From NCBI GenBank assembly GCA_002862095.1, contig PHSQ01000003.1, forward strand, positions 1-64,000: 64,000 nucleotides of DNA, in the 5' to 3' direction. The DNA comes from Methylocystis sp. KS32. Lineage in GTDB: Bacteria > Pseudomonadota > Alphaproteobacteria > Rhizobiales > Beijerinckiaceae. Under the pieces are notes generated by a model. That model saw only the letters and a list, made by a program, of their open reading frames with translations, did not search any database and was not told the origin of the DNA. How positions within the stretch are numbered: the stretch's first letter is position 1; each line of letters begins with the position of its first letter. Of this stretch, positions 28,007-44,627 are shown in pieces. The position numbers were made by a program, and so were the translations under genes.

Positions 28007-28041
28007 GGTGCTAGGAGTCCCGTGCGGGGGTAACGCCACAA

Positions 28042-28063
28042 CCGGGCGCGCTTTGGCGCCCGG
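28042..28063 (-). promoter_or_regulatory. Intercistronic hairpin between hcp and the reductase gene
   Basis: CCGGGCGC (28042-28049) and GCGCCCGG (28056-28063) form an 8-bp GC stem with a six-base loop in the 75-bp gap. On the transcribed strand no T-run follows. It may be a partial terminator or a processing/stability element that sets different levels for Hcp and its reductase. Confidence 0.45.
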
Positions 28064-28080
28064 TCACGAGGCTTTTTGCG

Positions 28081-29745
28081 TCAGGCGGCGCGGCTGAGCG
28101 ACGCCTCGATGTCGGCCTTGGCGTCGCCGATCGGTTGGATGCCGAATTTTTCGACGAGCACATTGACCAGCGCCGGCGTCAGGAAGGCCGGCAGCGTTGG
28201 GCCGAGGCGCACATTACGCACGCCGAGCGCCAGCAGCGTCAGCAGCACCGCCGCAGCCTTTTGCTCGAACCACGAGACGATCAACGACAGCGGCAGCTCG
28301 TTGACGCCGACGCCAAAGGCTTCGGCCAGCTTGCTCGCGACGACGATCGCCGAATAGGCGTCGTTGCACTGGCCCATGTCGAGGAGCCGCGGTAGTCCGC
28401 CGATCGTTCCGAAGTCGTGCCGGTTGAAGCGATATTTGCCGCAGCCCAGGGTCAGCACCATCGTGTCTTGCGGCGCGTGCTCGGCGAAGTCGGTGTAATA
28501 GTTGCGGCCCGGCGCCGCGCCATCGCAGCCGCCGACCAAGAAGAAGTGGCGAATGGCGCCTGCCTTCACCGCGTCGATCACCTTGTCCGCGACGCCAAGA
28601 ACCGCGTCGCGGCCGAAGCCGATGGTGACGGTCTCCTCGGCCGCGTCCTCATTGAAGCCTGGAAGCGCCAGCGCGGCCTGGACGACCTGCGAGAAGTCGC
28701 CATTCTCGATGTGGCGGACGCCCGCCCAACCCACCGGACCCGCGGTGAACAGGCGCCCGCGGTAGCGCGGTTGCGGCTCGATCAGGCAATTCGACGTCAT
28801 CACGATCGGGCCGGGGAAGTCGGCGAACTCCTTCTGCTGATCCTGCCAGGCGCCGCCGTAATTGCCGACAAGTTGCGGGTAGGCCTTGAGCTTGGGATAG
28901 GAATGCGCCGGCAGCACTTCGCCATGCGTGTAGACGTTGATCCCCTTGTCTTTGGTGGCTTCGAGGATCGCGTGCAAATCCTTGAGGTCGTGGCCCGAGA
29001 CGAGGATCGCCTTGCCCTTGATCGGCGTCATGCGCACGATGGTCGGAACGGGAGTGCCGAAGGAGCCGGTGTTGGCGGCGTCGAGCGCCTCCATGGCCGA
29101 GAAATTTGCGTGGCCGAGCGCCAGCGCTTCGTCGAGCAGTGGACCAATTTCCCTGGGCTCGCTGGCGAGAAGATCGAGCGCGTGTTCGACCGCCGCGTAA
29201 ATGGCGGCGCGCTCTTGGCCGAGCACCTCGGCGTGATGCGCGTAGGCGCAGACGCCCTTGAGGCCATAAAGCACCAGTGAGCGGAGGCCGACGACATCGT
29301 CGCCGAGGGTAGCAGCGTCCTTCTTCACCGCCGCTGCGCTCGCTTGAGCCAGAAGCCCATTCATGTCTTTGGCCGGAATGAAAGCGGCGGCTCCTGAAAG
29401 CCTCTCGGGCGTTTTGCCAGCAGTTTGAGCGGCCTTTTCATAGAGCGCCTTGGCGCGGTCGCGATGTTGCGCCGCCTGCTGGATGAGTTCGACAAATTTG
29501 CCGGCGTTGAAATTGACGTTCGTCAGCGTGGTGAAGAAGGCATAGAGCACGAAGCGATCGGCGTCAGCGTCGATCGCGCCGAGGGTGCGGGCGCGACGGA
29601 GATATTGGCCGATCCCTTCGCAGACATGCAACAGAATGTCTTGCAGATCGGAGGTTGTGGCGTCCTTGCCACACATACCTTTGGGGCCGGCGCAGCCCGC
29701 GCTTTCGTCCGACCGATAAGTCTGCTCGCATTGATAACAGAACAT
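28081..29745 (-). CDS. hcp: Hybrid cluster protein (hydroxylamine/NO reductase)
   Basis: A 554-residue Hcp, cytoplasmic, with an N-terminal Fe-S cluster and the hybrid Fe-S-O cluster. Proposed activities are high-affinity NO reduction to N2O, hydroxylamine reduction, and S-nitrosylation in E. coli. The N-terminal cluster ligands are in MFCYQCEQT and [11 protein letters not shown]. Hybrid-cluster ligands are visible in [20 protein letters not shown] with following HDLKDL, in [19 protein letters not shown] and [12 protein letters not shown]. Length matches the family. Downstream is an MmoC-like reductase and upstream is nsrR, all leftward. A candidate NsrR operator lies about 60 bp before the start. 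Confidence 0.96.
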
Positions 29746-29805
29746 GGGCGCGTCCTTCTTTCGCTCGTCTTTGTGACCGGCGCTCCGGAGGCGGCGCGCT
29801 AAAGT

Positions 29806-29822
29806 CAGTATTAAAAATACCT
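29806..29822 (-). promoter_or_regulatory. Candidate NsrR operator upstream of hcp
   Basis: CAGTATTaaaAATACCT is an imperfect inverted repeat, AT-rich against the GC-rich surroundings, about 61 bp before the hcp start. The left half CAGTATT is identical to that of the element before nsrR itself at 30323-30339. NsrR is known to bind AT-rich inverted repeats of about this spacing. Assignment to NsrR is inference. Confidence 0.5.
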
Positions 29823-29871
29823 ATTAAGGCCGGACGAAGTCAAGAAGCCCTCCAAAAAGCCGGTCTGTCGT

Positions 29872-30306
29872 TTAATCGACGAGGTCGAGCATCGGCGCAA
29901 CGCCGTTCTTTTCGAGGCAATCGCTGATGGTGAAGCGATCAAGTTCGCGCAAGAAACCCAGTTGCGCGCGGGCCAGCATCCCCTTGAGGCGGCACCGCGG
30001 CAAAAACGCGCAGTCATTCCACCCCTCGCGAAAACAATCGACGAGGGCCTGTTCCTTGCCGAGACTGCGGACAACGTCGCCGATGCGGATGTCGCGCGGA
30101 TCGCGCGCCAGTCGAACGCCGCCTTGCGCACCTCGGATTCCCTCAAGATAGCCCGCGGACGTCAGCTCTTGCAGCACCTTCGCCATATGATGGCGAGAGA
30201 CGTGGAAATGGTCGGCGATCGCTGCGGCGCTCAAAATCTCCCCCTTCCGTTCCGCCAGGAGGATCAGCGCGCGCAGCCCAAAATCGGTGAAGCTGGTCAG
30301 TTTCAT
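29872..30306 (-). CDS. nsrR: Rrf2-family nitric-oxide-sensing repressor
   Basis: A 144-residue Rrf2 protein with an N-terminal winged helix (MKLTSFTDFGLRALILLAER, AAAIADHFHVSRHHMAKVLQ, AQGGVRLARDP). Three Cys in DCFREGWNDCAFLPRCRL are spaced C-x7-C-x5-C and would ligate an NO-sensitive Fe-S cluster as in NsrR. IscR has a different spacing and longer tail. The ATG at 30306 starts the conserved MKLT; an earlier in-frame start (30354) would add a non-conserved leader over the likely operator. The gene lies 126 bp upstream of hcp, so the regulated target is adjacent and the gene is probably autoregulated. Confidence 0.92.
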   Translation of the reverse strand: MKLTSFTDFGLRALILLAERKGEILSAAAIADHFHVSRHHMAKVLQELTSAGYLEGIRGAQGGVRLARDPRDIRIGDVVRSLGKEQALVDCFREGWNDCAFLPRCRLKGMLARAQLGFLRELDRFTISDCLEKNGVAPMLDLVD

Positions 30307-30322
30307 AAAAGCGACACTATCA

Positions 30323-30339
30323 CAGTATTCAAAATTCTG
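30323..30339 (-). promoter_or_regulatory. Candidate NsrR operator upstream of nsrR
   Basis: CAGTATTcaaAATTCTG: half-sites CAGTATT and AATTCTG match in six of seven positions when inverted, around a 3-base centre, 17 bp upstream of the nsrR start codon. It shares half-site and spacing with the site before hcp. Position suits autorepression. Confidence 0.5.
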
Positions 30340-30563
30340 ACATAGGAACGCCACGGGCTTCAGCAGCGCCTGTCTTCGGGTCGGGGCATCATATGATTGA
30401 GATTCGGCTTCAATCGCTCACAGAATCCGGGGATCTAAGTCAGCGCTTGCGCGTCATCGATAGCTTGGTTTGAGCGCCCATCGTTAGCCTCTCGGCGACG
30501 CGTCGGGCGCCGTCAACTTAACGGCCGGAGGTCGCGCCGAAACCGCAAGGCGGGTCTCGGGGA

Positions 30564-31150
30564 TCATGCAGCCCTGGCCGTTCCCGTGATCTCGCGCCAT
30601 GCGGCGATCGCCCTCGCGCGATGAGCGCGGCGGGCGTTCGCCGTCTGATGTTCGGGGCGGGGAAGGTGGAAGAGATTGGCGACCTGATCGTGAATGGACA
30701 AGAAGCGCTGCGCTTGTCGCGCCGATTTGAACCGCTTCATGATCCTCTCTCGTCGCCGCGTCGGTTGATGCGAATTTTCCGCTCGGTTGATCAGGCCTTT
30801 GTGTTGGCGATGCTCGACCTTCAACGTCATGTCCCTGCGGGCCGCGCCATAAGAGGGCAATTTGTCCGTGATCATGACGCGCGGCGCCCTGGCGGTCTTT
30901 CGCAGCAGCTTGCGCATGAGGCGGCGGGCGGCTTTCCGGTCGCGACGGCTTTGAACGAGAACGTCGAGAACGAAGCCGTCCTGATCGACGGCGCGCCAGA
31001 GCCAGTGTTTCTTGGCGGCGATAGAGACGACGACTTCGTCCCTGCGCCATTTGTCGCCTCGCTGCGGAGCGTGCCGGCGAATGTTGGATGAAAAATCGCG
31101 GCCGAATTTCTCCGCCCATCGGCGGATCGTTTCGTAGGTGACGCCATTTC
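30564..31150 (-). pseudogene. 5'-truncated IS6-family transposase
   Basis: From VTYETIRRWAEKFGRDF onwards the product matches IS6/IS26-type transposases: WLWRAVDQDGFVLDVLVQSR (first Asp), RVMITDKLPSYGAARRDM (second Asp), NRAENSHQPTRRRERIMKRF (Glu) and a normal C-terminus. The conserved N-terminal HTH region before this is missing, and the frame instead runs back into unrelated sequence to 31223. No matching terminal repeats were found. Its truncated end is about 140 bp from the fragment of a second AAA ATPase gene. Confidence 0.8.
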
Positions 31151-31289
31151 TAACCCGCGAAAGTCCCAACGACTCCCAAAAATCCAGCAGGAATCGAAAG
31201 ATTTTCAGACTCTCAGTATCCACAACAATACCGGCCGTATCTCAATGCGACACGGCAGAAGAATGGGAGAGCGATCACGCCGGCGCGCA

Positions 31290-31425
31290 GGAGCTTGTTG
31301 GTCAGGCAGAACGACAGGGCTTTGGACGGCGCCGCCGCCTTGATCTTCTCCGCCGGGGCGCGCAGATCGACCTCGGCGCGGCTGACCGAAGGATCGGAAA
31401 TAGGCGCCGTCGTATACAAATTCGC
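31290..31425 (-). pseudogene. Fragment of a second copy of the two-domain AAA+ ATPase gene
   Basis: About 40 codons (DPSVSRAEVDLRAPAEKIKA then PSKALSFCL) match the segment just before the second Walker A of the intact ATPase at 35487-37514 (DPSLSRADVDLCALTTKIKA, PSKALSFCLSGPPGTGKS). The DNA match is also obvious. Homology stops exactly where GPPGTGKS should begin, followed by unrelated sequence towards the IS6 remnant. This is a relic of a paralogous ATPase gene lost by deletion. Confidence 0.75.
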
Positions 31426-31443
31426 CCACGCGGCTCAATAACT

Positions 31444-32121
31444 TCAGCCCCTCATCAGAGCTTTCACATGAAGAATCGCGATAGGCTTCCGTTGCAAGGC
31501 GTCGAACACCGCTGCCGTGAGGCGCCCTCCATAAACCGCGGCGGTGTCGATGTTGATGCGATTCTCCCGCGCGTCCGGCTTCAGGACGGGCGTGTGGCCG
31601 TGGACGATGTATTTCTCATGCGGCGTTCTGTCCTTTAAGAACAAATGCCGGATCCACAATTTGTCTACGTCGTTCTGGTCTTTCAGCCTGACGCCCGGAC
31701 GGATGCCGGCGTGGACGTAATAGCGCAGCTCGTCTTCGCAGGACGTTGGCAGTCCGGCGAGCCACGCGGCGTCGTCGCGCAAGAGTTCGACGTTCGGATA
31801 ACTCTCGACCGTCGCGTCGCCGCCATTATCCGGGCTCACCCAGCTTTGCTTGTCGCCAGGCTCGCCGCCCAGCGCGGCCCGCGCCATCATGAATTCGTGG
31901 TTGCCCTTCAGATTTACGACGGAGGCGAAACCGGGATATAAGCTTCGCAACCGATGCCGGATCAGCCGCACGACCCGAAACGAATCCGGCCCGCGATCCA
32001 CATAGTCGCCCAAGGTGATCAAACGCGCGGGCTTGCCCGCCGCGTGCGCGCCGCACAGATCGAGCAACGCGACAAACTCTTGGAAGCACCCGTGAATATC
32101 GCCAATCACATAGGTTCGCAT
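31444..32121 (-). CDS. PPP-type metallophosphoesterase (serine/threonine phosphatase or Ap4A hydrolase-like)
   Basis: A 225-residue soluble enzyme with the full metallophosphoesterase motif set: GDIHGC (residues 7-12), GDYVDRGPDS, LKGNHEFMM, YVHAGIRPG and YIVHGHTPV. These bind two metal ions and hydrolyse phosphoesters; bacterial members act on phosphoproteins or diadenosine tetraphosphate. The ATG at 32121 (MRTYVIGDIHG) follows a GGAGGAGAG ribosome site; an upstream in-frame start at 32205 has no support. A fragment of an AAA ATPase gene lies directly downstream on the same strand, so phosphatase and ATPase may once have been one unit. Confidence 0.88.
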   Translation of the reverse strand: MRTYVIGDIHGCFQEFVALLDLCGAHAAGKPARLITLGDYVDRGPDSFRVVRLIRHRLRSLYPGFASVVNLKGNHEFMMARAALGGEPGDKQSWVSPDNGGDATVESYPNVELLRDDAAWLAGLPTSCEDELRYYVHAGIRPGVRLKDQNDVDKLWIRHLFLKDRTPHEKYIVHGHTPVLKPDARENRINIDTAAVYGGRLTAAVFDALQRKPIAILHVKALMRG

Positions 32122-32414
32122 TGTCGCGCCGCTCTCCTCCCGATCGCATTTGGATCGGCGTAAATCCTCGGTCGGAAAAGCCATATGATGTGGCTCTGTG
32201 CTCATAACGAGCAGCTACGACAATATTGGACGACGCTGATCGCGCCGGCTGGTTGGTTCGTTCACGAAACGCGACAGGGCAGAATTATGGGCGGTGTATT
32301 TTGCGTCGCGGCATGGGAACCACCGGGAAAGCGGATTGTCGGCGCCGATGAGGCGCCGACAAAACATCGGGAGAAGCCCGCGAGCGGGGCGGGGAATGTC
32401 CCCGCCCGTCGATG

Positions 32415-32720
32415 TCAGCGCCTTGGCGGCGCGGGGTGGCGCAACGCAGCGCCTCGATCCACCACCACATCCCGTCCCGGGATCAGCGTTCCCGGCCGGT
32501 CAACCTCGATGACCATGCCGCGAAGTCCGACATGCACGCTCATGGCGCAATGCAGGCCGTCGGGGAGGATGGCGGGCGCATAGGCGATATGCCGCCCATG
32601 CGATTTGATTGCGCGACCGGCCTGACGCCACAGGGCCGAAAGCGACCGCGCTCCATCTGGCCCAGCGGCCAGAATTTGATCCGCGAGGTCCTGATGCAGG
32701 CGTATGGTGATTTGCGGCAA
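32415..32720 (-). CDS. Small protein of unknown function with TTG start
   Basis: A 101-residue protein. The TTG at 32720 is supported by GAGGAGG placed five bases upstream and by an N-terminus resembling a ribbon-helix-helix strand (PQITIRLHQDLADQILAAG). The second half (VGLRGMVIEVDRPGTLIPG) looks beta-rich and the tail is Arg/Pro-rich. If the RHH reading is right, it is a DNA-binding regulator, but the match is weak. It lies on the leftward strand with the phosphatase and the nuclease genes. Confidence 0.5.
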   Translation of the reverse strand: MPQITIRLHQDLADQILAAGPDGARSLSALWRQAGRAIKSHGRHIAYAPAILPDGLHCAMSVHVGLRGMVIEVDRPGTLIPGRDVVVDRGAALRHPAPPRR

Positions 32721-32855
32721 GACTGCCTCCTCTAGCTCAAAGCGAACGAAATTCGCGCAGCGGAAATCGCGGCGCGTTTCGGTTCGGGAGCAGAGGGAGG
32801 AGGTCAGGCCATGGCTTTCCTATAATTGATCTTGCATCAGGCCGCAAACAGCGGA

Positions 32856-33062
32856 TCAACGCGCGGGAGTGGTCGATATATGCTGGCCCTTTCCATCGTA
32901 GGTGTAGATGAATGCGCCTCGGCGGATATTGACGGTCGAAGCGGTATAGCCCTTCAGTCCGTCCTGCGGTCCGGCGCCCGCGCTAAGTGTGCAAAGCTGA
33001 TGGCCTTTTTCGTCATACACATAAACGAACGAACTCCGTTGAACGGCATTGCCAATCGCCAT
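32856..33062 (-). CDS. Small conserved protein of unknown function
   Basis: A 68-residue protein, MAIGNAVQRSSFVYVYDEKG, with two similar beta-hairpin blocks: SSFVYVYDEKGHQLCTLSAG and GAFIYTYDGKGQHISTTPA. Small proteins of this exact pattern are scattered through proteobacterial genomes, without an assigned role to my knowledge. The ATG at 33062 follows GGAAGG at nine bases. It has no signal peptide or membrane segment. Internal duplication suggests a compact all-beta fold. Confidence 0.7.
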   Translation of the reverse strand: MAIGNAVQRSSFVYVYDEKGHQLCTLSAGAGPQDGLKGYTASTVNIRRGAFIYTYDGKGQHISTTPAR

Positions 33063-33189
33063 GATCAATTTCCTTCCGAAAGCATAGACGCCTCGCGGCG
33101 CCGACGAAGCGGCGGGGAGAAACCTCGCTCCGTCGCTTGGCGTCAGGAAAAGACAATACCGCTTCGGTACGTCAGATTCGGACGCTTTA

Positions 33190-35439
33190 TCAAACCTTGG
33201 GCGTCACGTGCTCGTTGACCGCATCTTCCCCCTGGTGACGGGACGATGTCCAAGAAGAATATTCGAGATCGTCGTGAAAGCGCTGATAAAGATAGACTGC
33301 CCGCTTCTCGACAGCTACCTGAAACGCCTGAAGGCGTTCGTTGTTCCATTTTCTGTCCGCAACTGCTCCAGAACGGGAAACGAGCCGCCAGGGAGCAATT
33401 TCGGCAGAAAACGCCCAATCTTTCATCCCCTTTTTAAATTTGTCGCTCTCGGGCTTCTGCTTAATGAAGCACATTTTTTCCTCGACGTCGGTGTCCCCAT
33501 CGCCCCGGTTTTGGGCTGAGCCGACAAGACGCAGATTTCCAATCCCAGCCCCGATTTGATCGCGGGTGCCCCGCAATTCTTCTTTATTTTGAACTTCGGC
33601 ATCAAGCCGATGTTGAAACAGCCTCCAGTCCTGTCGCCAGTCATTACTTGGACAAACATGGTCTAAATCGTATGGAATATCGTCCTCATGATCGGTCAAA
33701 GGAGCATAATCAGGGAATGCTTTCCTTATATAATCTCGCTGCAACCATGGCAGAAGCGCTTTGCCGTTCCACCACCAGCGCGCGCACATTTCATTGCGAA
33801 TTTTACCCGCGACGAAACGATCGGCGTCGGTTCGCCAAACAGGAGTTTCTTGAAGGGCATCAAAGTGTTTGTCAAAATCCTCGGCGGAGATTAGATCTTG
33901 CGCGCATTTATCGCCTTCGTGACCAATCAGAATTTGATAAAGCTTGATGGCGGGAAAAACTTTGTCCCCTATGTCGCGAAGATATTCGGAACGGCGAACT
34001 GTCGCTTTGTTTATGTCGCAAAGATATTCAAAACAGCGAACTGTCGCTTTTTCATCGTTCCAAACGCACAAACGCCAAAAAAGAGCGAAACGGACCGCCT
34101 CTTTGCGGGACTCGTTCCATTGAGTGCCCTCCGGCAACGAACTGGCCCAAAACACCAGGACTTGCCATACGCCCGGCGGCAATGTCGCCAACAGCACGTC
34201 AGGAAGCCAAAATGCGTCCTCACCCTCCTGAAAAGAAAGAATATTTTTGATCGCTTCGAAGCCTTGCTGCAGCGGCCCCGTGCGTCCTGAAGGGATCAGT
34301 CCGTTCAAGTTTGAATGAAGCTCGCTCTCTTGATCCTTCATTTCCTTCGCGAATAAGGCCACGTCTGGGACTGAAAAGGACGGCTGTTTCTTTCGCGCAT
34401 TGGCGATGCGAAGCGCTGTTGTTACAATCTTTGTCGGGGGCAGAATCTTGCCGACAGTGGCGGAAATGTTTTCTACTAGTTCCTGTATTTCCTTTTTATG
34501 ATGCTTGTAGATCGAATAAAGACGCTCCTCGTTGCTCAACGGCTCCCCGCCGGCACCGACCCTTTCAAATAATGCAAGTACCGCATCGTCGCCTTGTAGC
34601 GCTCCTAAATCGACCTTCAACAAGGCCACATGCGCTGCTTTGAGCCGCTTAAATGCTTTATGAAGGGCGGCAATAGCTGCCTCTGAAGCACCCGGCGCTT
34701 CTTTGGTAAGCGCATCCAAGTTGCCTTCTCGCCAAGCGCGCAACAAACGCCTGAGTTTGAAAGTGGTGGAGCCGCTTGACCTGTATGGCTTTGGTGGCTC
34801 CTCAATCTTTTTGCCGTCTTGCGCAACATTTCCGCTAAAGAGTTCAGAATCATAGGCCGAGCGCGGTTTTCCATCGTCGCCAAGGCGAGGGTTTCCTTGC
34901 TGGTCCAGAACCAAGATAGGATGATCTTTTGGCTCGATCGCTTCTCGCGCTTTGCGGCGATCATGTGTGGGCCATTTTCGCCCAGTCGCGGGGTCATATC
35001 CAAAGGGCTGGGTCTTCGATGTTATGAACAGACGGAAGGACGATGAATCCGTTGGCGCAAGATCGACCCAAAGACAGCGGTCGTCCGAAATTTCTGCCCA
35101 TCCAAGTAGGAGGGCTCGCAAGCGTTGCTGCCCATCCAAGAGATCAAAGCCGGCTCCTTCGATGGATTTTCCGTCCAAACGCCTCGCTTGCCCGGTGCCC
35201 GCGCGCGTCAGGAGATAGAAAATACCAATCGGCAGACCGCGTAGCACCGAATCCCAAAGATCGACGATTTTCTTCGCGTTCCAAACCGCTGAACGCTGGA
35301 TAGGCGGAAGCCCGAGCGGCTTGTCCGGCGCAGACGCCAAGGCGGCCTCCGGCTGCAACGAGTTTTTCGCCCATTCAATAAATTCGCAAAGGCTTTGTCC
35401 GACGACGGTTTTGTCTTCTTCAAATACTGGTGCAGCCAT
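33190..35439 (-). CDS. DUF262/HNH protein, GmrSD-like candidate restriction nuclease
   Basis: A 749-residue protein. The N-terminal DUF262 domain has LPPIQRSAVWNAKKIVDLWD (about 44-63) and the nucleotide-binding signature FDLLDGQQRLRALLLGWAE (about 102-120). The C-terminus has an HNH-type site YDLDHVCPSNDW near 590 and GNLRLVGSAQNRGDGD near 640, as in DUF1524 domains. GmrS-GmrD fusions of this layout are type IV restriction enzymes that cut modified phage DNA using NTP; other DUF262 proteins belong to different defence systems. The start ATG has GAGAGG five bases upstream. The AAA+ ATPase gene ends 47 bp upstream on the same strand, so the two are probably one operon. Restriction activity is inferred. 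Confidence 0.82.
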   Translation of the reverse strand: MAAPVFEEDKTVVGQSLCEFIEWAKNSLQPEAALASAPDKPLGLPPIQRSAVWNAKKIVDLWDSVLRGLPIGIFYLLTRAGTGQARRLDGKSIEGAGFDLLDGQQRLRALLLGWAEISDDRCLWVDLAPTDSSSFRLFITSKTQPFGYDPATGRKWPTHDRRKAREAIEPKDHPILVLDQQGNPRLGDDGKPRSAYDSELFSGNVAQDGKKIEEPPKPYRSSGSTTFKLRRLLRAWREGNLDALTKEAPGASEAAIAALHKAFKRLKAAHVALLKVDLGALQGDDAVLALFERVGAGGEPLSNEERLYSIYKHHKKEIQELVENISATVGKILPPTKIVTTALRIANARKKQPSFSVPDVALFAKEMKDQESELHSNLNGLIPSGRTGPLQQGFEAIKNILSFQEGEDAFWLPDVLLATLPPGVWQVLVFWASSLPEGTQWNESRKEAVRFALFWRLCVWNDEKATVRCFEYLCDINKATVRRSEYLRDIGDKVFPAIKLYQILIGHEGDKCAQDLISAEDFDKHFDALQETPVWRTDADRFVAGKIRNEMCARWWWNGKALLPWLQRDYIRKAFPDYAPLTDHEDDIPYDLDHVCPSNDWRQDWRLFQHRLDAEVQNKEELRGTRDQIGAGIGNLRLVGSAQNRGDGDTDVEEKMCFIKQKPESDKFKKGMKDWAFSAEIAPWRLVSRSGAVADRKWNNERLQAFQVAVEKRAVYLYQRFHDDLEYSSWTSSRHQGEDAVNEHVTPKV

Positions 35440-35486
35440 AATTCCTCTCCGTCATTGCTTAAATGGCCACGCAGGCCAGTTCTCCA

Positions 35487-37514
35487 TCAAAATCCCATTT
35501 TCACCAGCTTCCCTTCGGGCTTCGCCGCAACCTCTTCCTCTAGCCATTGCGCCAACCGCGCCGGCTCCCGCTCCCCCAAAACCTCCGCCTTGCGCACAAC
35601 GACAGCGAAATCACCCGGCGTCAAAAGCTCCAGCTTGAGGATAGACCTCGGCGCCTCGATTCCGAAAGCCCTAAAAAATGCTGCGGCGATTTGCCCCTCG
35701 TCCATCGGCAGAAACCGCACTTTGAACAGAAAGCGCCGCGCCGTCGCCGGGTCGAGCGTGTCAGGCGCATTGGTGGTGCAGGCGAAGGGGAGCGGGTGCC
35801 GCTCCATCCAGGTCAGCATTTCATTGACCTGGGTGATCTCCCAGGAATGGCGCGCGGCGCCGCGATCCCGCAGCAGCGAATCCGCCTCGTCCAATATGAG
35901 GAAGGCGCCGAGATCGGCGGCTTCTTCGAAGGCGGCGGCGATGGCCTTTTCCGACTCGCCGAGAAAGCTCGATGTCAGATCGGAATAGCGCTTGTCCAGC
36001 ACCTCCAGGCCAAGCTCCGCCGCCAGATGGCGCGCATAGGCGGATTTGCCGGTGCCGGGCGGGCCGGACAGGCAGAAAGACAAGGCTTTGGACGGCGCCG
36101 CCTTGATTTTTGTCGTCAGGGCGCAAAGATCGACGTCGGCGCGGCTGAGCGACGGATCGAAGACGATCGGCGCCGGCGGCGGCGCGATTTCGCTATAGCC
36201 CATCGCTTTCAGGCCGCCGCCGAGAATTTGCAACGCCTCTTCGCCCGAGCCACCCATGCGGGCTGCGGACAGGATGGCGTTTTCAATTAGCGCTGGAGCG
36301 GCCGGCAGACGCGCCAATTGACCGATCGCCATAGTGTCGAGGTTGAACTTCGCCCGACTCGCGACGCGTTCGACAATTCTCTGCCTGACCGCCACGCCCG
36401 GCCGAGGGAAGCGCATGACCAGGTTCATCCGCCTCACCACAGCCGGTCCCAGGCGGGCGATATCGTTGGTGATCCAGATCGTTGGCGCCCGCGTCTGTTC
36501 GACCAGGCGGTTCATGAACACTTTCGAGCCATCGCGCGTAGAGGCGTCATCATCATCGACTCCGGCGAAAAGATCGTCGGCCTCATCGACAACGACAATC
36601 ATTTTCCCCGCAGCAGCCCCCAGTTCCGTGGCGATCATCAATGCGGCGACTCGTTCGCGGCGGTTGGGCTCGCTGCTCTGCTTGTCGGCCTCGCCAATAA
36701 AATGAACGCCGCGCTTCACGCGGGCGCCCAACGTCTTGGCGAATTCGCTTTTTCCCGTGCCGGGCGGTCCGTAAAGCAGAATATTGGCGCCAGGACCCTC
36801 GCTGTTCTCGACGATGCGGGCGGCGAGATCGCGCGATGCGCCGATATGAGCGAAGTCGTCCCAATGCAGCGTGGCCGGACGCGTCTTTCCCAGAAGCTGG
36901 TCCCGAACTTCGCGCGCCGACAGTCTGGGCATGGAAATGACCCGCTCGACGGTGTCGGTGAGGCTCAGATTGTCGTTCGAATCCAGTTCGACGAGGCCGA
37001 AACGCAACAAGGCGCTGTCCTTGCGCAGTTCGCGCATGTCGATCCCCGGGCGAAACACCGGACATAGCTCCTTGATGTCGAAGGTCTGGTGGCGAGACCT
37101 GTAGTGCCACGACCCGTTGGCGGCCGCCAGCAGTTCACCGCACACGATATTGCTGGAAATCCGCGCCAGCAGCGCGAGCAGGTAGCCCTGGGATTGGGTC
37201 AGGCCGCAGCATTTGACGAAGAAATCGACCCGCTTTTGCAGCGGCGAGGGAGCGGGTTCGGGCTTCCGGGTTGCGGCAAGCGCGGCGGCGCGCCAGGTTC
37301 GCCACACCTCCCGGCGCGCGCGTCGCATCTCGGCGTCCTTGTCGAAACGATAGTCCTCGGAAGGCAATTTCAGATACGGCAGCCCAGAGCGGCGCCCGTA
37401 GGATTTGATCCAGTTGAGAATGTCGCCGTCGTCATCTGGCGGAACCTCATAGCGCTTCGAAGTCAGCAGGGCGCAAAAATATTGAAGGATCGTCCATCGC
37501 TCGTGGATGTGCAT
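35487..37514 (-). CDS. Two-domain AAA+ ATPase of the WYL-linked cassette
   Basis: A 675-residue protein with a unique N-terminal region (MHIHERWTILQYFCALL, about 1-230) and two AAA+ modules. Module 1: Walker A GPPGTGKS near 248, Walker B VVVDEADD near 308, arginine-finger region GPAVVRRMNLVMRFPRPG. Module 2: Walker A GPPGTGKS near 485, Walker B LILDEADS near 540, and ATARRFLFKVRF. It resembles FtsH/Cdc48-type remodelling ATPases rather than helicases. The ATG at 37514 is preceded by GAGGGGAC; the earlier start at 37562 is unsupported. It is divergent from a WYL regulator 79 bp away and upstream of a DUF262 nuclease gene. A fragment of a second copy survives at 31290-31425. Role in defence is inference from context. 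Confidence 0.85.
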   Translation of the reverse strand: MHIHERWTILQYFCALLTSKRYEVPPDDDGDILNWIKSYGRRSGLPYLKLPSEDYRFDKDAEMRRARREVWRTWRAAALAATRKPEPAPSPLQKRVDFFVKCCGLTQSQGYLLALLARISSNIVCGELLAAANGSWHYRSRHQTFDIKELCPVFRPGIDMRELRKDSALLRFGLVELDSNDNLSLTDTVERVISMPRLSAREVRDQLLGKTRPATLHWDDFAHIGASRDLAARIVENSEGPGANILLYGPPGTGKSEFAKTLGARVKRGVHFIGEADKQSSEPNRRERVAALMIATELGAAAGKMIVVVDEADDLFAGVDDDDASTRDGSKVFMNRLVEQTRAPTIWITNDIARLGPAVVRRMNLVMRFPRPGVAVRQRIVERVASRAKFNLDTMAIGQLARLPAAPALIENAILSAARMGGSGEEALQILGGGLKAMGYSEIAPPPAPIVFDPSLSRADVDLCALTTKIKAAPSKALSFCLSGPPGTGKSAYARHLAAELGLEVLDKRYSDLTSSFLGESEKAIAAAFEEAADLGAFLILDEADSLLRDRGAARHSWEITQVNEMLTWMERHPLPFACTTNAPDTLDPATARRFLFKVRFLPMDEGQIAAAFFRAFGIEAPRSILKLELLTPGDFAVVVRKAEVLGEREPARLAQWLEEEVAAKPEGKLVKMGF

Positions 37515-37592
37515 GATTGTCCCCTCTTGACAGGCATGGAGAATAGGAGATTGATGCGACAATATCGGACGTAATAATTTTAGGCGGCAGCT

Positions 37593-38582
37593 ATGAGACT
37601 GGAAAAATCGACGGCCGTTCTCAAACTGGCGCGCGCGCTGGCAAGCAACTGGGAAGGCCTGACGCTCGACGAAATGGCGGCCTTTCTGGGCGTCGGACGC
37701 CGGACCGCCGAGCGGATGCGCGACGCCGTCCAGGAGGTTTTCGGATTACTCGATCAGATCGACGACGGCCGCAAACGCCGGTTTCGCATTGCCGCGCGCG
37801 GACTCGACCGTTTCGCGACGATCCCGACCATTGACGAACTCACCGAACTGGAAAACGCCGCGCGTGCGCTTGAAGCGGTTCAGGCCCCCGAACGCGCCGC
37901 GCACCTCCATTCGTTGCGCGACAAGATTGGCGCCAGCCTGCGCGACGAGGACCGTCGACGTCTCAGCCTCAATGTCGAAGACCAGATTCGCGCCGAGGCA
38001 TTCGCCTGTCAGGTCGGGCCGCGGCCGACGTCCGATCCTTCCGTGCTCTCCGCTCTGCGCGAGGCATTGCTCGCGGGACGGGTGGTCCGCTTCAATTACG
38101 GCGGCGACGACGGCGAGCCGCCGCGCTGGCGCAAGGTCGTGCCCTATGGCCTGCTGTTCGGGCCACGGTACTATCTCGTCGCCAGCGTCAAGAGTCGGCC
38201 GGGCGCGGTGCTTTTTCGGCTCGACATGATCCACGACGTCAAGGTGACGGACGAGCCGGGCGCGCCGCCGGAGGACTTCGACCTCAAGGCCTATGCGGAG
38301 CGTTCCTTCGGCGTGTTTCAGGAAGAACCGGAAGACGTGGTGTTGCGCTTCGTCCCTTCGGCGGCGCGCGACGCCCGCGCCTATCTGTTCCATCCGACGC
38401 AAAGCCTCACAGATAATCCAGACGGATCGCTCACTGTGCGCTTCCATGCCGGCGGCCTGTTGCAGATCGCGCATCACCTGATGACCTGGGGGCCAGCGGT
38501 GACAATTGTCGCCCCTCCAGAACTGCAAGAGGTGATGCGCGCGCAGGTCGAGACCCTGCACGCGCATTATGTGGCGTCTTAG
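37593..38582 (+). CDS. WYL-domain transcriptional regulator
   Basis: A 329-residue regulator. The N-terminal winged HTH is GLTLDEMAAFLGVGRRTAER (residues 21-40). The central WYL domain spans about 145-220, with VRFNYGG, RKVVPYGLLFGPRYYLVASV and FRLDMIHDVKV. A C-terminal WCX-type extension follows (VVLRFVPSAARDARAYLF, GLLQIAHHLMTWGPAVTIV). WYL proteins bind nucleic-acid-like ligands and frequently repress defence operons. It is transcribed away from the AAA+ ATPase across a 79-bp gap, which probably contains its operator. It ends tail to tail with the next gene, overlapping by four bases. Confidence 0.9.
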   Translation: MRLEKSTAVLKLARALASNWEGLTLDEMAAFLGVGRRTAERMRDAVQEVFGLLDQIDDGRKRRFRIAARGLDRFATIPTIDELTELENAARALEAVQAPERAAHLHSLRDKIGASLRDEDRRRLSLNVEDQIRAEAFACQVGPRPTSDPSVLSALREALLAGRVVRFNYGGDDGEPPRWRKVVPYGLLFGPRYYLVASVKSRPGAVLFRLDMIHDVKVTDEPGAPPEDFDLKAYAERSFGVFQEEPEDVVLRFVPSAARDARAYLFHPTQSLTDNPDGSLTVRFHAGGLLQIAHHLMTWGPAVTIVAPPELQEVMRAQVETLHAHYVAS

Positions 38583-38950
38583 CCATCCATCGGCTCGAAG
38601 CGCCGCCCATCGACGCGGAATTCCAGCAAGTCATCGTCGCGTAACATCCCGATGACCAGTGTCAAAGGCTCCTGAAAATACGGGCTGGCGGCGGCGTTTT
38701 CGCTGGGATCGAACTGCGGGGTCGGCAGAACGGCGGTGACGATGGCGGGCTCGCCGTAATCAGGAAATTTTCTGTTCTTGAGCCCGGGCTTCCACATCAC
38801 GAACTGGCCCTTGGCGAAAACATTATATTGGTCCAGACGTTCGGCGAGTTCCGACAGCATCCGCTTGTGGGTTTCCGCCGGATTGTCGACCTGCGGTCCA
38901 TCCGCCAGGCGGATTGCCGGAAAACTTCGGTCGGCTTTGTCATTTTTCAT
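38579..38950 (-). CDS. Conserved protein of unknown function
   Basis: A 123-residue soluble protein. The start MKNDKADRSFPAIRLADGP at 38950 has CGGAG a few bases upstream; an earlier in-frame start (38998) is less likely. The middle contains QYNVFAKGQFVMWKPGLKNR and PDYGEPAIVTAVLP, which look like a small beta-barrel that sets limits on a value, then LVIGMLRDDDLLEFRVDGRR. No family name is known to me. It is divergent from the next gene (65-bp gap), and the two small genes probably share control. Confidence 0.65.
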   Translation of the reverse strand: MKNDKADRSFPAIRLADGPQVDNPAETHKRMLSELAERLDQYNVFAKGQFVMWKPGLKNRKFPDYGEPAIVTAVLPTPQFDPSENAAASPYFQEPLTLVIGMLRDDDLLEFRVDGRRFEPMDG

Positions 38951-39015
38951 AATCGCTCCGCAGTAACTGAGGCAATGAAACAACGATCGCATCAACATAC
39001 GACAGAATCGGACGC

Positions 39016-39423
39016 ATGACTGAGGACGCTTCCCCGCTTATTGGTATTTTCTGGATGATTGCGACCTCCGAAGGCGTGCGTCTGCTCGCGGCGTCATGCC
39101 GGTTGGACAAGGCCGAGCCATATGGCGATTGCCTGACCTTCGGTCTCGGCCATTACGAGGTTTGGCGAGGCTGGCGAAGGTCGCGCGAGCTGGACGCCGC
39201 GGCGCGCGCCGTCGTGCGCGCACATGAATATGAGGATTGGCCGCGCGATCGCATCGTCTTCGATCGGGCGCAAGATCGGTTCATTCTCTATTGTGATCGC
39301 AAATTGATGCGGCCGAAGACAATTGAGGAGATCCAACAACGCTTCCAATTACCCGCTGATCGGACCGCGGTTGAAGCGGATTTTCATTACCAGAGCAGGG
39401 AAACGCCGAATCTGCTTCGTTGA
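39016..39423 (+). CDS. Conserved protein of unknown function
   Basis: A 135-residue soluble protein. It begins MTEDASPLIGIFWMIATSEG and contains LLAASCRLDKAEPYGDCLTF, GHYEVWRGWRR and RIVFDRAQDRFILYCDRKLM. It ends with a helix RPKTIEEIQQRFQLP. The layout of a short antiparallel sheet followed by a helix recurs in uncharacterised proteins of alphaproteobacteria. No catalytic motif is visible. Transcribed divergently from the preceding small gene at the border of the insertion-sequence region. Confidence 0.65.
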   Translation: MTEDASPLIGIFWMIATSEGVRLLAASCRLDKAEPYGDCLTFGLGHYEVWRGWRRSRELDAAARAVVRAHEYEDWPRDRIVFDRAQDRFILYCDRKLMRPKTIEEIQQRFQLPADRTAVEADFHYQSRETPNLLR

Positions 39424-39639: not shown

Positions 39640-40447
39640 TCAAGACACACTTCTTCCGTCGTGGCGAGCAGTTTTGGCAGGCGCACGATGTTGTAGGCGG
39701 CCATGCCGAAGACAAAGACGGCCTAGATATTTTCCAGACTGCGCAGTTTGATCTGGGCAAGTCAGCCGGTGATCTTCGCCCAGCCGAACGCCTCTTCGAT
39801 CGGCTTGCGAATACGCAGGCTGGTCTTGTCGCCCTCGCTGGCCGATACTTCCGGCGGAACCGCCGTCTTGCGGGCCTTGCCGGTCTTGCTCACTGTTCCG
39901 TTGATCGCCACATGCGGCTCGATCTTGCGGGCCTTCAAGTCCTCGACAAAGTCTTCGACATCGTAGCCCTTGTCGGCCCCCAGCGTCGCGCCTTCGGGCA
40001 GGTCTGCGGTCAATTCCGTCGCCGCCTCGCGCTCCGCCGTTCCGCTCGCACGCGTCGCGGTCGCGCCGACGACGAGACCGTTACGGTTCTCCATCAGCGC
40101 ATGGCCCAGATAAGCGAGCTTGCTCTCCTTGCCCTTGCCCTTGCCCTTGCCCTTGCGATACAGCCGCGCATCCTTGTCGGTAGTCGAGGCGTGGGTTTCG
40201 TTCCAACGCTTTTCGGTCTTGAAGTCGCGCTCGCCGTTGCGCCCCGGAGCCGGCGGCTCGCCCGAGCCGTCCTTCGGGCGAAAACTCTTCATCGACGCGA
40301 AGGCTTTCAGCATTGTTCCATCGACGGAAAAATGCTCGGCGGAGAGCAGCTTCTTCACCTGCGGCAGCGCCAGCAGCCTCGACAGGAATTCCTGTGCGAT
40401 GTCCGCGTTCAGCAGACGCTCGCGGTTCTTGGAAAAGGACGAGGCGT
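39640..40447 (-). pseudogene. IS5-like transposase, C-terminal part, interrupted by IS256
   Basis: Reading leftward from the IS256 insertion: FDASSFSKNRERLLNADIAQ, HFSVDGTMLKAFASMKSFRP (first Asp), a Gly/Lys repeat KGKGKGKGK, GHALMENRNGLVVGATAT, GADKGYDVEDFVEDL and KPIEEAFGWAKITG. A stop then breaks the frame, and decayed sequence (VFVFGMAAYNIVRLPKLL) continues to about 39640. The N-terminal part resumes beyond the IS256 element at 44628-44713. The gene was an IS5/IS1182-like DDE transposase and is dead through insertion and a nonsense change. Confidence 0.82.
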
Positions 40448-40456
40448 CGAAAACCG
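40448..40456. repeat. 9-bp target duplication flanking IS256 (left copy)
   Basis: CGAAAACCG at 40448-40456 is repeated exactly at 44619-44627, immediately outside the inverted ends of the IS256-type element. Joining across one copy restores the IS5-like frame EAVFDASSF. The 9-bp length fits the 8-9 bp made by IS256-family transposition. Confidence 0.88.
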
Positions 40457-41210
40457 GAGCTATGGCCGAAACTGGGTGATGACGGGGTGAGGAAGGCGGC
40501 GTAACGGGGTTGGTGACCAAACCTGCCCGAAGCTCCAGGAGGAGCGTTACGCCATGACCGAGAATAATGTTGTCGCATTCAAACAGGAAGGCGCAATCGA
40601 CGACCCGCTTACGGAAATCCTGCGCTCAGGCGCGAAGCGTCTGATTGAGCAGGCGGTGGAGGCGGAATTCGCGGCGTTTCTGGCGCAGCACGGCGAGTTG
40701 AAGCTGCCGGACGGGCGCCAGCGCGTCGTTCGGCACGGGCATGATCCCGTCCGCGCGATCCAGACGGGCGTTGGGCCTGTCGAGGTGGAAAAGCCCAAGG
40801 GGCGTGACCGTGGGGCGAGCGACGAAGACCGCATCCGCTACGCCTCGTCGATCCTGCCGAAATGGGCGCGGCGCACGAAGAGCCTCGACGTTCTCCTGCC
40901 GGCGCTGTATCTGCGCGGCGTTTCGACCGGCGATTTCCAGGATGTGCTGACCGCCTTGCTCGGCAAGGGGGCGCCCAATCTTTCGCCCAGCGTGATCGCG
41001 CGGCTGAAAGGCGACTGGGAAGACGATTATCGCCGCTGGCAAAAGCGCGATCTGTCGGCTCGACGCTATGTCTATGTGTGGGCCGACGGCGTCTATCTGC
41101 AAGCGCGCATGGAGCCGCAGGCAGAATGATGGAGTGGATGCCCCCTCCTGACGGCATCGAATGTGCCAAGGTGGTGATGTTTTCGCATCCCACGAACGGA
41201 GAGAGCATCC

Positions 41211-42245
41211 ATGGAACAGGTTAGCATCATCGGTCTCGACCTTGCAAAGCGCTCCTTCCAGGCGCACGGCGCCCTCGCCGACGGCGGCGTGGCTTTCCGC
41301 AAGAAGCTTTCCCGAGAGAAAGTTCTCGCCTTCTTTGCCGAGCAGCCACGCTGCGTCGTCGCCATGGAGGCCTGCGGGAGCGCGCACCATTGGGGACGGA
41401 CCATCCGCGACCTTGGCCACGAGGTTCGGTTGATCCCGCCCGCCTACGTCAAACCGTTCGTGAAACGCCAAAAGAACGATGCGGCCGACGCGGAAGCGAT
41501 CGCCGAGGCTGCGGTTCGGCCGACGATGCGCTTCGTCGCGGTCAAGACCGAGGAACAGCAAGGGCGCGCCATGCTTTTCCGGACGCGCGATCTTATGGTC
41601 CGGCAGCGCACGCAACTGATCAATGCGCTCCGCGGTCATTTGTCGGAGCACGGCGTCGTGGCCGCGCAGGGACCCGCGAATGTGAAAGTTCTTGCAGAGG
41701 CGGTCGAGGATCAGGGTCAGGGGACTTCGCTTCCGCTTCTCGTCGTGGAGTTGGCCCGTGTCTTCCTCGATCAGATCGAGGGGTTGTCGAAAAGGATCTC
41801 CGAACTCGAGAAGGTGACGGTCCACGAAGCCGCGTGCGGAGAAACGACGCGACGTCTGCAGACGATGCCAGGCGTCGGCCCCATCACGGCCTTGGCGATC
41901 GAGACCTTTGCGCCGCCGATGGATGTCTTCAAACGCGGGCGCGATTTCGCCGCCTGGCTCGGGCTCGCGCCCCGGCAACATTCGACCGGCGGCAAGCAGG
42001 TTCTCGGAAAAGTCTCGAAGATGGGGCAGCGTGATATTCGTCGGCTGCTGATCATCGGCGCGATGGCCGTCGTCCGCTCGGCCTCGCGAAAGGGCGCCCC
42101 GGAGGGAAGCTGGCTGCAGCGCTTGCTGGCGCGCAAACCAAAGATGCTGGTGGCGATTGCGCTCGCCAACAAGATGGCCCGGTCGATCTGGGCCATGCTG
42201 GCGAAGGCGGAGGATTATCGGGTTCCTGTGGCTGCGGCGGCCTGA
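41211..42245 (+). CDS. IS110-family DEDD transposase (copy A)
   Basis: A 344-residue recombinase. The N-terminal RuvC-like DEDD domain has SIIGLDLAKRSFQAHG (first Asp), VVAMEACGSAHHWGR (Glu), PAYVKPFVKRQKNDAADAEA (last Asp pair) and PTMRFVAVKTEEQQGRAML. The C-terminal transposase-20 domain has LQTMPGVGPITALAIETFAP and FAAWLGLAPRQHSTGGK with the catalytic Ser region. The start ATG follows CGGAGAGAG. It is intact and therefore possibly active. RNA-guided target choice is established for relatives, not shown here. Confidence 0.93.
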   Translation: MEQVSIIGLDLAKRSFQAHGALADGGVAFRKKLSREKVLAFFAEQPRCVVAMEACGSAHHWGRTIRDLGHEVRLIPPAYVKPFVKRQKNDAADAEAIAEAAVRPTMRFVAVKTEEQQGRAMLFRTRDLMVRQRTQLINALRGHLSEHGVVAAQGPANVKVLAEAVEDQGQGTSLPLLVVELARVFLDQIEGLSKRISELEKVTVHEAACGETTRRLQTMPGVGPITALAIETFAPPMDVFKRGRDFAAWLGLAPRQHSTGGKQVLGKVSKMGQRDIRRLLIIGAMAVVRSASRKGAPEGSWLQRLLARKPKMLVAIALANKMARSIWAMLAKAEDYRVPVAAAA

Positions 42246-42503
42246 TCGACAATCAGCCAAAGCAACCGGAGGACTGTCGGGCGTGTAGGGAGGTCGACGA
42301 ACGGTAAGGTCAAAATGATCGGTTAGATCTGGGTCTGGAAACGCGTTAACATGCACCGAGCTCGACAGCTCGCCCGAATGATCTGCGCCAGATCCGCTCA
42401 TCTCCATACCGGCCAGCGGCCAGATCAGGCCGCTTACCAAGGCCTGATACATGACCGCATCCGATCACGCGGACCAAGTCGTTCGAAAACATCTTGCGCG
42501 AAC
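42246..42503 (+). ncRNA. Candidate bridge/seek RNA region of IS110 copy A
   Basis: The 258-nt non-coding stretch between the transposase stop and the right subterminal repeat has no other role. In IS1111-type elements the guide RNA is transcribed from this 3' end. Exact ends and loops were not folded. It should contain short segments matching the IS256 target next to 41128 and 42521. Confidence 0.45.
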
Positions 42504-42974
42504 GGGGGCATCCATACATGCATGTTGGTGATCATTGGCGCGACGCCGGAAGGCAAGAAGGAGCTGCTCGGCCTCGCGGCGGGCATGCGCGAGAGCGCGC
42601 AAAGCTGGAAGGAATTGCTCGTCGATTTGAAAGCGCGCGGGCTGGTCCTGGCGCCGGAAATCGCGGTTGGCGACGGGGCTCTCGGCTTCTGGAAAGCGCT
42701 TGACGAGGCGTTTCCGTCGACGCGCCATCAGCGGTGCTGGGTTCACAAGACGTTGAACGTTCTCGACAAGCTGCCGAAGGCCTTGCAGAGCGCCGCGCAT
42801 AAGGATTTGCGCGAAATCTGGCTGTCGGAGAGCCGCGCGGCGGCGCAGACGGCGATGGATATTTTCGCCGAGAAATTTGCGGCGAAATATCCGAAGGCCG
42901 TCGATTGCTTGACGAAAGACCGCGACGCACTGCTGACGTTTTTCGATTTTCCCGCAGAGCATATGTGGACGGCC

Positions 42975-43234
42975 CCATGGCAAGCGTTTTCTTCGCGTTG
43001 AACGATTTGGTCGGCTGCGGTCATATGTCCGGCCTTTCGGTGCGGCACATACGTCCGCTGGCCTTGATGAAGTCCGACGCACTGGATCCCTATCATTGGA
43101 GCGAGCTTTGTGCTCATGCTCAGCGTCAGGGTGTTCCAGGCATTCGGTCACGACCGTGTCGTTCATCACGTTTCGATGCGCTTGCCAAACTCGAAGCTCA
43201 GGCCCCCTAGCTTGTAGCGATGGCGGCCTTTTCC
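42975..43234 (-). ncRNA. Candidate bridge/seek RNA region of IS110 copy B
   Basis: A 260-nt non-coding stretch between the leftward transposase stop (43235) and the element end. Position and length match copy A, although the sequence is different, which fits two elements with different guides. No folding was done and the RNA borders are unknown. Confidence 0.45.
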
Positions 43235-44260: not shown

Positions 44261-44627
44261 GGACGGCCTCCCTCTTTGTGGCGCTCCTGCGACCACGCCT
44301 TGGCACTATGATGCCGTTGAGGAGAGGCCGTCCACATCATCATTGGACGCATTTGCGCACGTCGAATCCGATCGAGAGCGCCTTTGCAACAGTGAGACAC
44401 AGAACCGTTCGCACGAAAGGCGCGCTCTCGCAGGACACGGCGCGTCTCATGGTGTTCAAGCTGGTGATGGAGGCGTCGAAAAGCTGGCGCAGGCTGCAAG
44501 GACAAAAGCTATTGCCCAGGATTATCAGCGGTGTAAAATTCCGCGACGGAATCGAAATCGCGTCCGATCAAAAATCCGCCGCTTGATTCATCCCGTCACC
44601 CAGATTCGTGCATAGCTCCGAAAACCG

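Follow-up and report, generated by a model that had tools for sequence, protein, structure and literature searches.

Gene content of the island

A gene island lies at about 31300-39423 in the 64,000-nucleotide stretch of Methylocystis sp. KS32 analyzed here (contig PHSQ01000003.1, positions 1 to 64,000; the whole stretch is called the window), which belongs to a genome of 3.36 Mb in 7 contigs. Its core consists of a WYL transcription factor, a protein with two AAA+ modules (hereafter AAA), and a DUF262 gene. An earlier reading of the letters alone (the sequence-only reading) had confined these to a three-gene cassette at 33190-38582; the island extends beyond that interval, and the unit looks larger than three genes, probably comprising P2, P1, WYL, AAA, the slot gene, s70, s101, and the phosphatase. 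Loci in other genomes are denoted by L numbers.

39016..39423, plus strand: P2, small conserved protein; homologs in L034, L036, L037, L087, L115
38579..38950, minus strand: P1, small conserved protein; homologs in L032, L033 (partial), L034, L115
37593..38582, plus strand: WYL transcription factor of the DriD family (winged helix-turn-helix, three-helix bundle, WYL, WCX), 329 aa; Pfam WYL 6.9e-13, WCX 2.9e-16
35487..37514, minus strand: AAA protein with two AAA+ modules, 675 aa from the ATG chosen as start; PF00004 1.3e-36 in two stretches
33190..35439, minus strand: slot gene, DUF262 (GmrSD_N) with a C-terminal HNH-like part, candidate nuclease effector, 749 aa; PF03235 1.6e-17
32856..33068, minus strand: s70, conserved 70-aa protein; homologs in L032, L033, L034
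32415..32720, minus strand: s101, conserved 101-aa protein; homologs in L032, L033, L034 at 80-95%
31444..32121 (open reading frame to 32205), minus strand: calcineurin-like phosphatase; Metallophos 4.9e-17; 90% identical in L032
31300..31412, minus strand: fossil remnant of another AAA gene, codons 467-499, lying behind the phosphatase (tblastn/blastn)

The WYL and AAA genes are divergent with a spacer of 78 bp, and the AAA and DUF262 genes are co-directional with a spacer of 47 bp. A longer, TTG-started frame of the AAA open reading frame (ORF) begins at 37562, the phosphatase start was set at MRTYVIGD following L032, and the start codon of P2 is uncertain, the chosen one falling inside a predicted regulatory box (38997..39017). 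No Pfam match was obtained for P1, P2, s70, or s101 (for P1 and P2, none at E <= 1). Gene calls and Pfam thus confirmed the three genes of the sequence-only reading, along with the insertion sequence (IS) debris, the small genes of no assigned function, and the phosphatase that it had noted around them. The set, which it had not recognized as a named system, gave partial or domain-level matches only in PADLOC 2.0.0.

For comparison, species genomes were scanned with the AAA protein, and the best 80 of 362 relatives were kept (L032-L111). A WYL gene is located within 3.5 kb of the AAA gene in 49 of these 80 loci, which speaks against a chance arrangement.

DriD homology and promoter geometry

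The WYL protein is a full-length homolog of Caulobacter DriD, covering the winged helix-turn-helix, three-helix bundle, WYL, and WCX parts, with phmmer matches over residues 1-319 to 9pfq (5.8e-81) and 8tp8 (6.9e-81) and identity at 149 of 317 aligned residues (47%). It is the sole match in its own genome at E <= 1e-5. The entries 9PFQ, 9PFV, and 9PGA are structures of DriD with RNA polymerase (PMC12340889), and 8TP8 is a DriD entry (PMC11804915). The next structures matched are 9cu3, 7tzv, and 7u02, titled merely "WYL domain-containing protein," and PafC. A CapW-like identity was considered and rejected, with DriD (9pfq, 8tp8) giving the best matches at E <= 10, and PADLOC returned CRISPR-type WYL models with partial or domain-level matches.

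DriD is activated by single-stranded DNA (ssDNA), binds ATACGAC(X)7GTCGTAT across the -35 region, and activates an operon divergent from its own gene (PMC12340889, a preprint). In Caulobacter, that gene faces a gene of no known function and a putative TonB-dependent transporter (PMC12340889). Because the protein in the window is 47% identical to this ssDNA-activated activator, it is probably no repressor, and the sequence-only reading, which had called it one, has to be revised on this point, the more so as the predicted boxes lie in an activator layout.

A position weight matrix (PWM) for the box was built from 26 boxes that precede AAA genes outside this genome, with L032-L034 left out. Since its training sites were picked using the DriD consensus, the PWM and that consensus are not independent; the test lies in how the PWM performs on the window and on loci held out of training. 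The top four PWM sites of the 64 kb all fall within the 8-kb island, while the next best (7.9) lies elsewhere. The four sites and the hexamer of the AAA promoter are as follows.

38997..39017, unstranded: DriD box between P1 and P2; score 30.4, the best of the window; conserved in L032, L034, L115
37554..37574, unstranded: DriD box between AAA and WYL; score 24.4, an exact match to RYGWCMNNATNNGWCGYA; conserved in L033, L034, L115, degenerate in L032
37540..37545, minus strand: TATTCT, the -10 hexamer for AAA, located 8 bp past the box
33167..33187, unstranded: DriD box right after the DUF262 stop codon, at the s70 promoter; score 24.2, likewise an exact motif match; the swapped segment ends here on its right side
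32215..32235, unstranded: weaker DriD-like box before the phosphatase; score 9.2, rank four; its L032 counterpart scores 16

The published consensus by itself, at <=3 mismatches, gives three matches in the window against 1.37 expected, a count that is not significant because 16 of 100 shuffles reach three; two of the three matches fall in the two divergent spacers of the island. Two of the window boxes carry 2 and 3 mismatches to that consensus, and the box at 33167 carries more than 3. The motif RYGWCMNNATNNGWCGYA, written after these sites had been seen, has three exact matches in the 3.36 Mb, all of them in the island, and at <=1 mismatch yields 43 rows, compared with 18 when the motif is reversed as a control.

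Beyond the window, split-sample tests (p <= 0.05) placed a box upstream of AAA in 19 of 26 and 18 of 22 WYL loci, or 37/48 in total, compared with 7/29 WYL-free loci, for which the scoring model was derived from all WYL loci (Fisher p 1e-5). Among these seven, L050 and L111 have WYL fragments, and L088 has a WYL gene at 3.7 kb. The bare published consensus was found upstream of AAA in 17/48 WYL loci versus 3/29 WYL-free loci. PWM matches above 13 number 65 in the WYL loci (training sites included) versus 8 in one block-shuffled set, and no PWM score reaches 7 in 22 WYL-free loci of the same order (L006-L027). The taxonomic range of the core and box includes alpha- and gammaproteobacteria, Desulfuromonadales, Binatota, and one locus labeled Deltaproteobacteria.

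The distance from the box to the -10 element is also constrained. In 16 of 31 non-redundant AAA promoters, a set that excludes Rhodoblastus-type loci, TANNNT stands exactly 8 bp past the box, compared with at most 2 promoters at any other of 50 offsets. The hexamers at this offset in the window are TATTCT (AAA), TATTGT (s70), TATGAG (phosphatase), and GATCGT (P1). Applied to Caulobacter promoters (sequences from PMC12340889), the PWM scores 26.2 for didA and 24.9 for driD/CCNA_03891, with CAAGGT and CAATCT, respectively, at the same offset; the placement of these hexamers is our own. The -10 elements of DriD promoters are described as weak and at one distance from the box (PMC12340889). The arrangement predicted here, with a box on the -35 region and a -10 at a fixed spacing, is thus the layout reported for DriD, and control of the island by a DriD-type factor through local boxes appears highly probable from these patterns. 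This copy of the WYL protein may itself sense ssDNA and act as an activator in vivo.

Several observations weigh against this control and against the wider reading developed below. The P1 hexamer is weak, the L032 box between AAA and WYL is weak, and L080 and L094 depart from the -10 spacing. The third published DriD promoter, bapE, was missed by the PWM (3.4). A significant box was not found upstream of the AAA ORF start in 11 of 48 WYL loci, including L036, L039, and L040; in L052, L076, and L095, a box was found elsewhere nearby, and the AAA ORF start is probably wrong. In the protein, the second arginine of the WYL R-x-x-R motif is M, M, M, S, and L in the window, L029, L032, L033, and L034, respectively, and both arginines are retained in just 5 of 49 WYL proteins; the matching arginine pair of PafB is required for ssDNA binding (PMC11804915). 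The reported contact positions of DriD with RNA polymerase read G18S, A20W, D71L, and P125L in the window protein, in which R120, R121, R122, and E128 of DriD are retained; A20 and P125 are variable across the 49 aligned WYL proteins. Finally, DriD has been described as a chromosomal damage regulator and not as a defense regulator.

The altered contact residues would suit a CapW/BrxR-like repressor that ssDNA releases and for which the box would be an operator that blocks RNA polymerase. CapW and BrxR, WYL factors of immune operons, do repress (PMC13373217), and a box that overlaps the -35 region is also where a repressor could act. However, the best solved relative is the activator DriD, the fixed -10 is paired with the box and not with a TTGACA-like hexamer at -35, as in DriD-dependent promoters, and the box-to--10 spacing is the same as in didA and driD. 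Repression is in our judgment quite improbable, and activation by a DriD-type factor is the reading followed from here.

The ATPase, the slot behind it, and its neighbors elsewhere

Walker A and B motifs appear intact by eye in both modules of the AAA protein, which was also placed in an alignment of 48 sequences. Its AlphaFold model has a mean pLDDT (predicted local distance difference test) of 85, and the best Foldseek matches are Rix7, p97/Cdc48, and NVL, in agreement with the remodeling ATPase proposed by the sequence-only reading. Identity to L033 and L034 in 50-residue bins is 22-54% over residues 1-200 and 64-96% over the remainder; a fast N-terminus on a conserved motor would fit a substrate-recognition domain. 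The second module matches IetA models over the AAA domain only, at 91.7 bits versus a cut-off of 510.

Among named organisms, Rhodoblastus has the closest relatives of the AAA protein, with 83% (L032) and 67% (L034) identity in the best segments. Among the genomes listed, 2 of 9 from the family have the AAA gene, and it is absent from the sole other member of the genus. A quick-method tree sets two branches without WYL, one of 16 loci (mostly Komagataeibacter) and one of 22 in-order genomes, apart from mostly WYL-linked ones, and the WYL label changes 14 times versus about 35 in shuffles; some ORFs in this tree are over-long through frame choice, and the WYL labels rest on the available flanks. 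We rejected the idea that the AAA protein is a general WYL partner, given that the 16-locus branch and the 22 order genomes had no WYL gene in the flanks examined, which measured about 1.5 kb for most of the 22, with eight also checked by hidden Markov model (HMM) over 6.6-19 kb. A phage-borne origin of the family was likewise rejected, as L148 alone is a strong match (6e-90) among at least 38 relatives on viral contigs. The Methylocystis genome also contains a second double-AAA gene (G000 C7:849438-850983; L030, L112), which is divided between two overlapping frames. A stretch of 19 kb around it has no WYL gene, no DriD box lies upstream, and its N-terminus by eye resembles the Komagataeibacter branch.

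Downstream of AAA, the DUF262 protein exceeds the GmrSD_N cut-off (64.8 bits versus 33.2) and falls below that of GmrSD_C (PF07510; 19.5 bits versus 23), its HNH-like residues being seen by eye only; it also matches PADLOC HEC-05 across 40 residues (6.8e-15). Relatives of this protein are rare, with one in the 80 AAA loci (L096, phmmer, about 7 kb from AAA), one across 248 further genomes from the order (E <= 1e-10; in G139, which itself has no AAA match at 1e-30), none across 288 further genomes from the class (E <= 1e-20), and three partial ones in 72,556 plasmid records. Co-occurrence elsewhere had been named beforehand as the test of the three-part set. Within the reach of these searches, AAA and WYL form a conserved pair to which DUF262 is no constant partner, and a fixed set of three genes was rejected, since other nucleases take the slot in the closest relatives.

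The slot is apparent in a comparison of the window with L032, L033, and L034. On its left side, P1 (partial in L033), WYL, and AAA are common to all four, and P2 is present in the window and L034; on its right side, s70 and s101 are common to all four. The genes in between are unrelated (tblastn, with five of six occupants as queries). The occupants are listed below with their PADLOC names, where we take PDC to mean phage defense candidate.

Window: DUF262-HNH
L032: PDDEXK_4 (PF14281, 1.2e-23; PADLOC PDC-S26, 1.9e-36)
L033: HNH_2 (1.6e-9; PADLOC HNH, 3.9e-19)
L034: GIY-YIG-like protein (by eye), with PDC-M15A (3.7e-61) and PDC-M15B (6.2e-74)

The GIY-YIG label of the L034 protein, and of a similar one in L113, is by eye only, since no family match was obtained for them in Pfam, NCBIfam, or PADLOC. 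Nuclease exchange, as predicted from these gene contents, is seen in four related genomes, and a slot with its edges is seen in Rhodoblastus-type loci only. Between the window and L032, homology ends at the AAA stop codon and returns at 33185, inside the box at 33167-33187. In L034, the 3' end of AAA (codons 586-691) is present again, frameshifted, between two cargo units, and both the window and L032 have an AAA fragment (about codons 464-499) behind the phosphatase. These AAA fossils suggest that cassettes may enter by recombination at the AAA gene. Nuclease genes of the L032 type are present at six further loci of the 80, namely L036, L037, L038, L048, L087, and L099 (clustering, tblastn).

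The slot could instead reflect ordinary island turnover, with unrelated genes drifting past a conserved AAA-WYL pair. IS debris on both flanks and the rarity of DUF262 relatives in the order and class genomes would be expected in that case. By contrast, when the window is compared with L032, the slot is bounded by the stop codon of AAA and the DriD box that follows, and its contents across four genomes resemble nucleases or defense candidates (for GIY-YIG, by eye). Drift therefore seems scarcely probable to us.

More broadly, nuclease-type neighbors are present at 34 of 49 WYL-linked versus 4 of 31 WYL-free AAA loci (Fisher p 7e-7), and in 21/28 versus 4/14 groups at 70% identity (Fisher p 0.007). 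The classes counted are DUF2779, AddA, AddB, TM0106-type, ExoI, MBL-RMMBL, and PDDEXK_4, with names checked by Pfam and NCBIfam on representatives. On plasmids, public annotation gives the order TM0106-WYL-5'-nucleotidase-DUF2779-WYL<>AAA-small-PD-(D/E)XK in S. yanoikuyae and AAA-WYL-ADP-ribosylglycohydrolase-HEPN-PD-(D/E)XK-UvrD in F. blasticum, the latter with boxes in front of AAA and some 190 bp ahead of the glycohydrolase. Among 20 neighbors, hand-picked and not random, PADLOC gave 9 strong matches to candidates that include PDC-S26, PDC-M15A/B, PDC-S02, PDC-S11, and HNH, versus 1 match among 10 control neighbors of WYL-free AAA genes. Counting against a defense role are the remainder of the 20, with 1 weak match (Cas4) and 10 without a match; the S. 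yanoikuyae locus, with no box above 12, does not favor the proposed control.

Two gene sets seen beside AAA are recorded here as side observations. An island in L113 (1514-10818, genome G004), with boxes at 1514 and 10818, encodes WYL (by HMM) and AAA together with MBL, a c50-like protein, and two proteins labeled by eye, the GIY-YIG-like one and a TM0106-like nuclease-helicase. In L034, L036, and L040, an RMMBL-type metallo-hydrolase and a 300-aa protein (cluster c50) are paired beside AAA-WYL; the c50 protein of L036 gave no Pfam, PADLOC, or NCBIfam match.

Repair genes among these neighbors leave room for a DNA-repair or damage-tolerance regulon, in which a DriD-type factor would induce an unfoldase and nucleases for the processing of damaged chromosomes, comparable to the DriD targets recJ, dnaG, and bapE. 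WYL-linked AAA genes repeatedly have AddA/AddB, ExoI, DUF2779, and TM0106-type nuclease-helicases as neighbors, and AddAB, ExoI, and TM0106-type neighbors also fit repair, which tells against a purely defensive role; the Caulobacter DriD regulon is itself damage-related (PMC12340889). A repair function accords less well with the replacement of unrelated nucleases by one another between close relatives, with slot genes that match defense-candidate families, and with the patchy AAA distribution in the family, and we regard it as rather unlikely.

ADP-ribosylglycohydrolase genes at 7 of the 80 AAA loci, including L033 and L034, and the box before such a gene on the F. blasticum plasmid bring to mind a derived ARG-centered conflict system (Viruses 2022), in which the WYL protein would sense ADP-ribose while the phosphatase and AAA handle modified proteins. 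WYL factors, phosphatases, and restriction endonucleases (REases) are named for the ARG-centered system (PMC9503650, section 3.8). However, no ADP-ribosylglycohydrolase was found among the island proteins scanned, a two-AAA protein is not named in that section, and the WYL protein resembles DriD, an ssDNA sensor, all of which make this origin highly improbable.

The IS debris around the island, and one seeming continuation of it, is distributed as follows.

30564-31223: IS240-type DDE transposase
39762-40520: DDE_Tnp_1
40554-41129: Mutator-type transposase piece
41211-42245 and a second copy at 43235-44296: IS110-type transposase

By eye, the IS110-type gene at 41211-42245 sits between the Mutator-type piece and its seeming other part, the ORF at 42351-43001. 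Elsewhere in the window, 26978-30354 encodes a hybrid-cluster-like protein, an iron-sulfur reductase, and an Rrf2-type regulator, which by eye look like a nitric-oxide/nitrosative stress module. A 1658-aa RHS-repeat protein with a Peptidase C39 domain (3026-8002) may be a polymorphic toxin or a protein of the cell surface. AT and GC skew is strong across genes for a major facilitator superfamily transporter and an outer-membrane efflux protein (15000-19100), where a tandem-repeat search yielded two short arrays.

Interpretation and comparison with known systems

Taken together, the locus is somewhat more readily understood as an SOS-independent, DNA-damage-inducible conflict island, most likely directed against phage, with an AAA-armed nuclease, and we consider this reading probable on the genomic evidence. 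It is in line with the defense-like cassette of WYL regulator, remodeling-kind ATPase, and nuclease foreseen by the sequence-only reading. In such an island, ssDNA from phage replication or DNA damage would bind the DriD-type WYL protein, which would then bind the boxes on the -35 regions of three to four local promoters and recruit RNA polymerase. The genes switched on would be AAA with the nuclease behind it, s70-s101 (perhaps with the phosphatase), and P1. The AAA protein would form a double-ring, p97-like unfoldase whose variable N-terminal region recognizes a target, and may arm, position, or release the nuclease encoded behind it, here DUF262-HNH, with the nuclease slot being exchangeable between strains. 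Of this scheme, the sequences themselves show the gene content, the homology to DriD, the boxes with their -10 geometry, the slot exchange in four genomes, and contexts rich in nucleases; that this copy senses ssDNA and activates in vivo, that ATPase and nuclease are coupled, and that phage is the target are inferred.

More tentatively, at a confidence somewhat short of even, we suggest that the island represents a widespread and previously undescribed class of modular immune islands. In these, a DriD-type ssDNA-sensing activator would control a p97-like double AAA unfoldase and a nuclease in an exchangeable slot, reaching from the AAA stop codon to the next DriD promoter, and new cassettes would be acquired through recombination within the 3' end of AAA, with AAA fossils remaining afterwards. 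No description of a DriD-AAA-nuclease island was found in Creative Commons-licensed PMC literature, judged on titles and abstract openings. If true, this would be an activator-driven, SOS-independent path from DNA damage to a nuclease, unlike the repressors CapW/BrxR, and would provide the large family of double-AAA proteins, which has no name, with a function that can be tested. The promoter code, a box with a -10 at 8 bp, can be searched in other genomes; the regulon may therefore be predictable from sequence, and the exchangeable slot would offer a handle for new effectors.

The island shares parts with several described systems. ARG-centered systems have a WYL factor, a calcineurin-like phosphatase, and variable REases (PMC9503650, section 3.8), whereas the island scan found no ADP-ribosylglycohydrolase and the AAA core is not part of that section's description. 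CapW/BrxR of CBASS, BREX, and other immune operons are ssDNA-responsive WYL factors beside the operon they control, but they repress (PMC13373217), while the WYL protein here is predicted to work in the DriD activator layout. GmrSD/BrxU type IV restriction and HEC-05 (DUF262-HNH) share the DUF262 N-domain and HNH-like C-domain; unlike in these, the match here covers 40 residues, and the gene stands behind AAA as one of several slot occupants. IetAS consists of an AAA protein and a protease. As in IetAS and other ATPase-plus-effector defense pairs, an AAA+ protein is adjacent to a candidate effector, but the island protein has two AAA modules, its IetA match covers the AAA domain only and is below the cut-off, and no protease family was found among the island proteins scanned. 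The DriD regulon of Caulobacter crescentus (PMC12340889, PMC4211646) shares a homologous WYL factor (47%), the same box, the box-to--10 spacing of didA and driD, a divergent promoter beside the regulator, and a nuclease target (bapE). Unlike that regulon, the exact-match boxes here are gathered in one accessory island, together with an AAA core and exchangeable nucleases.

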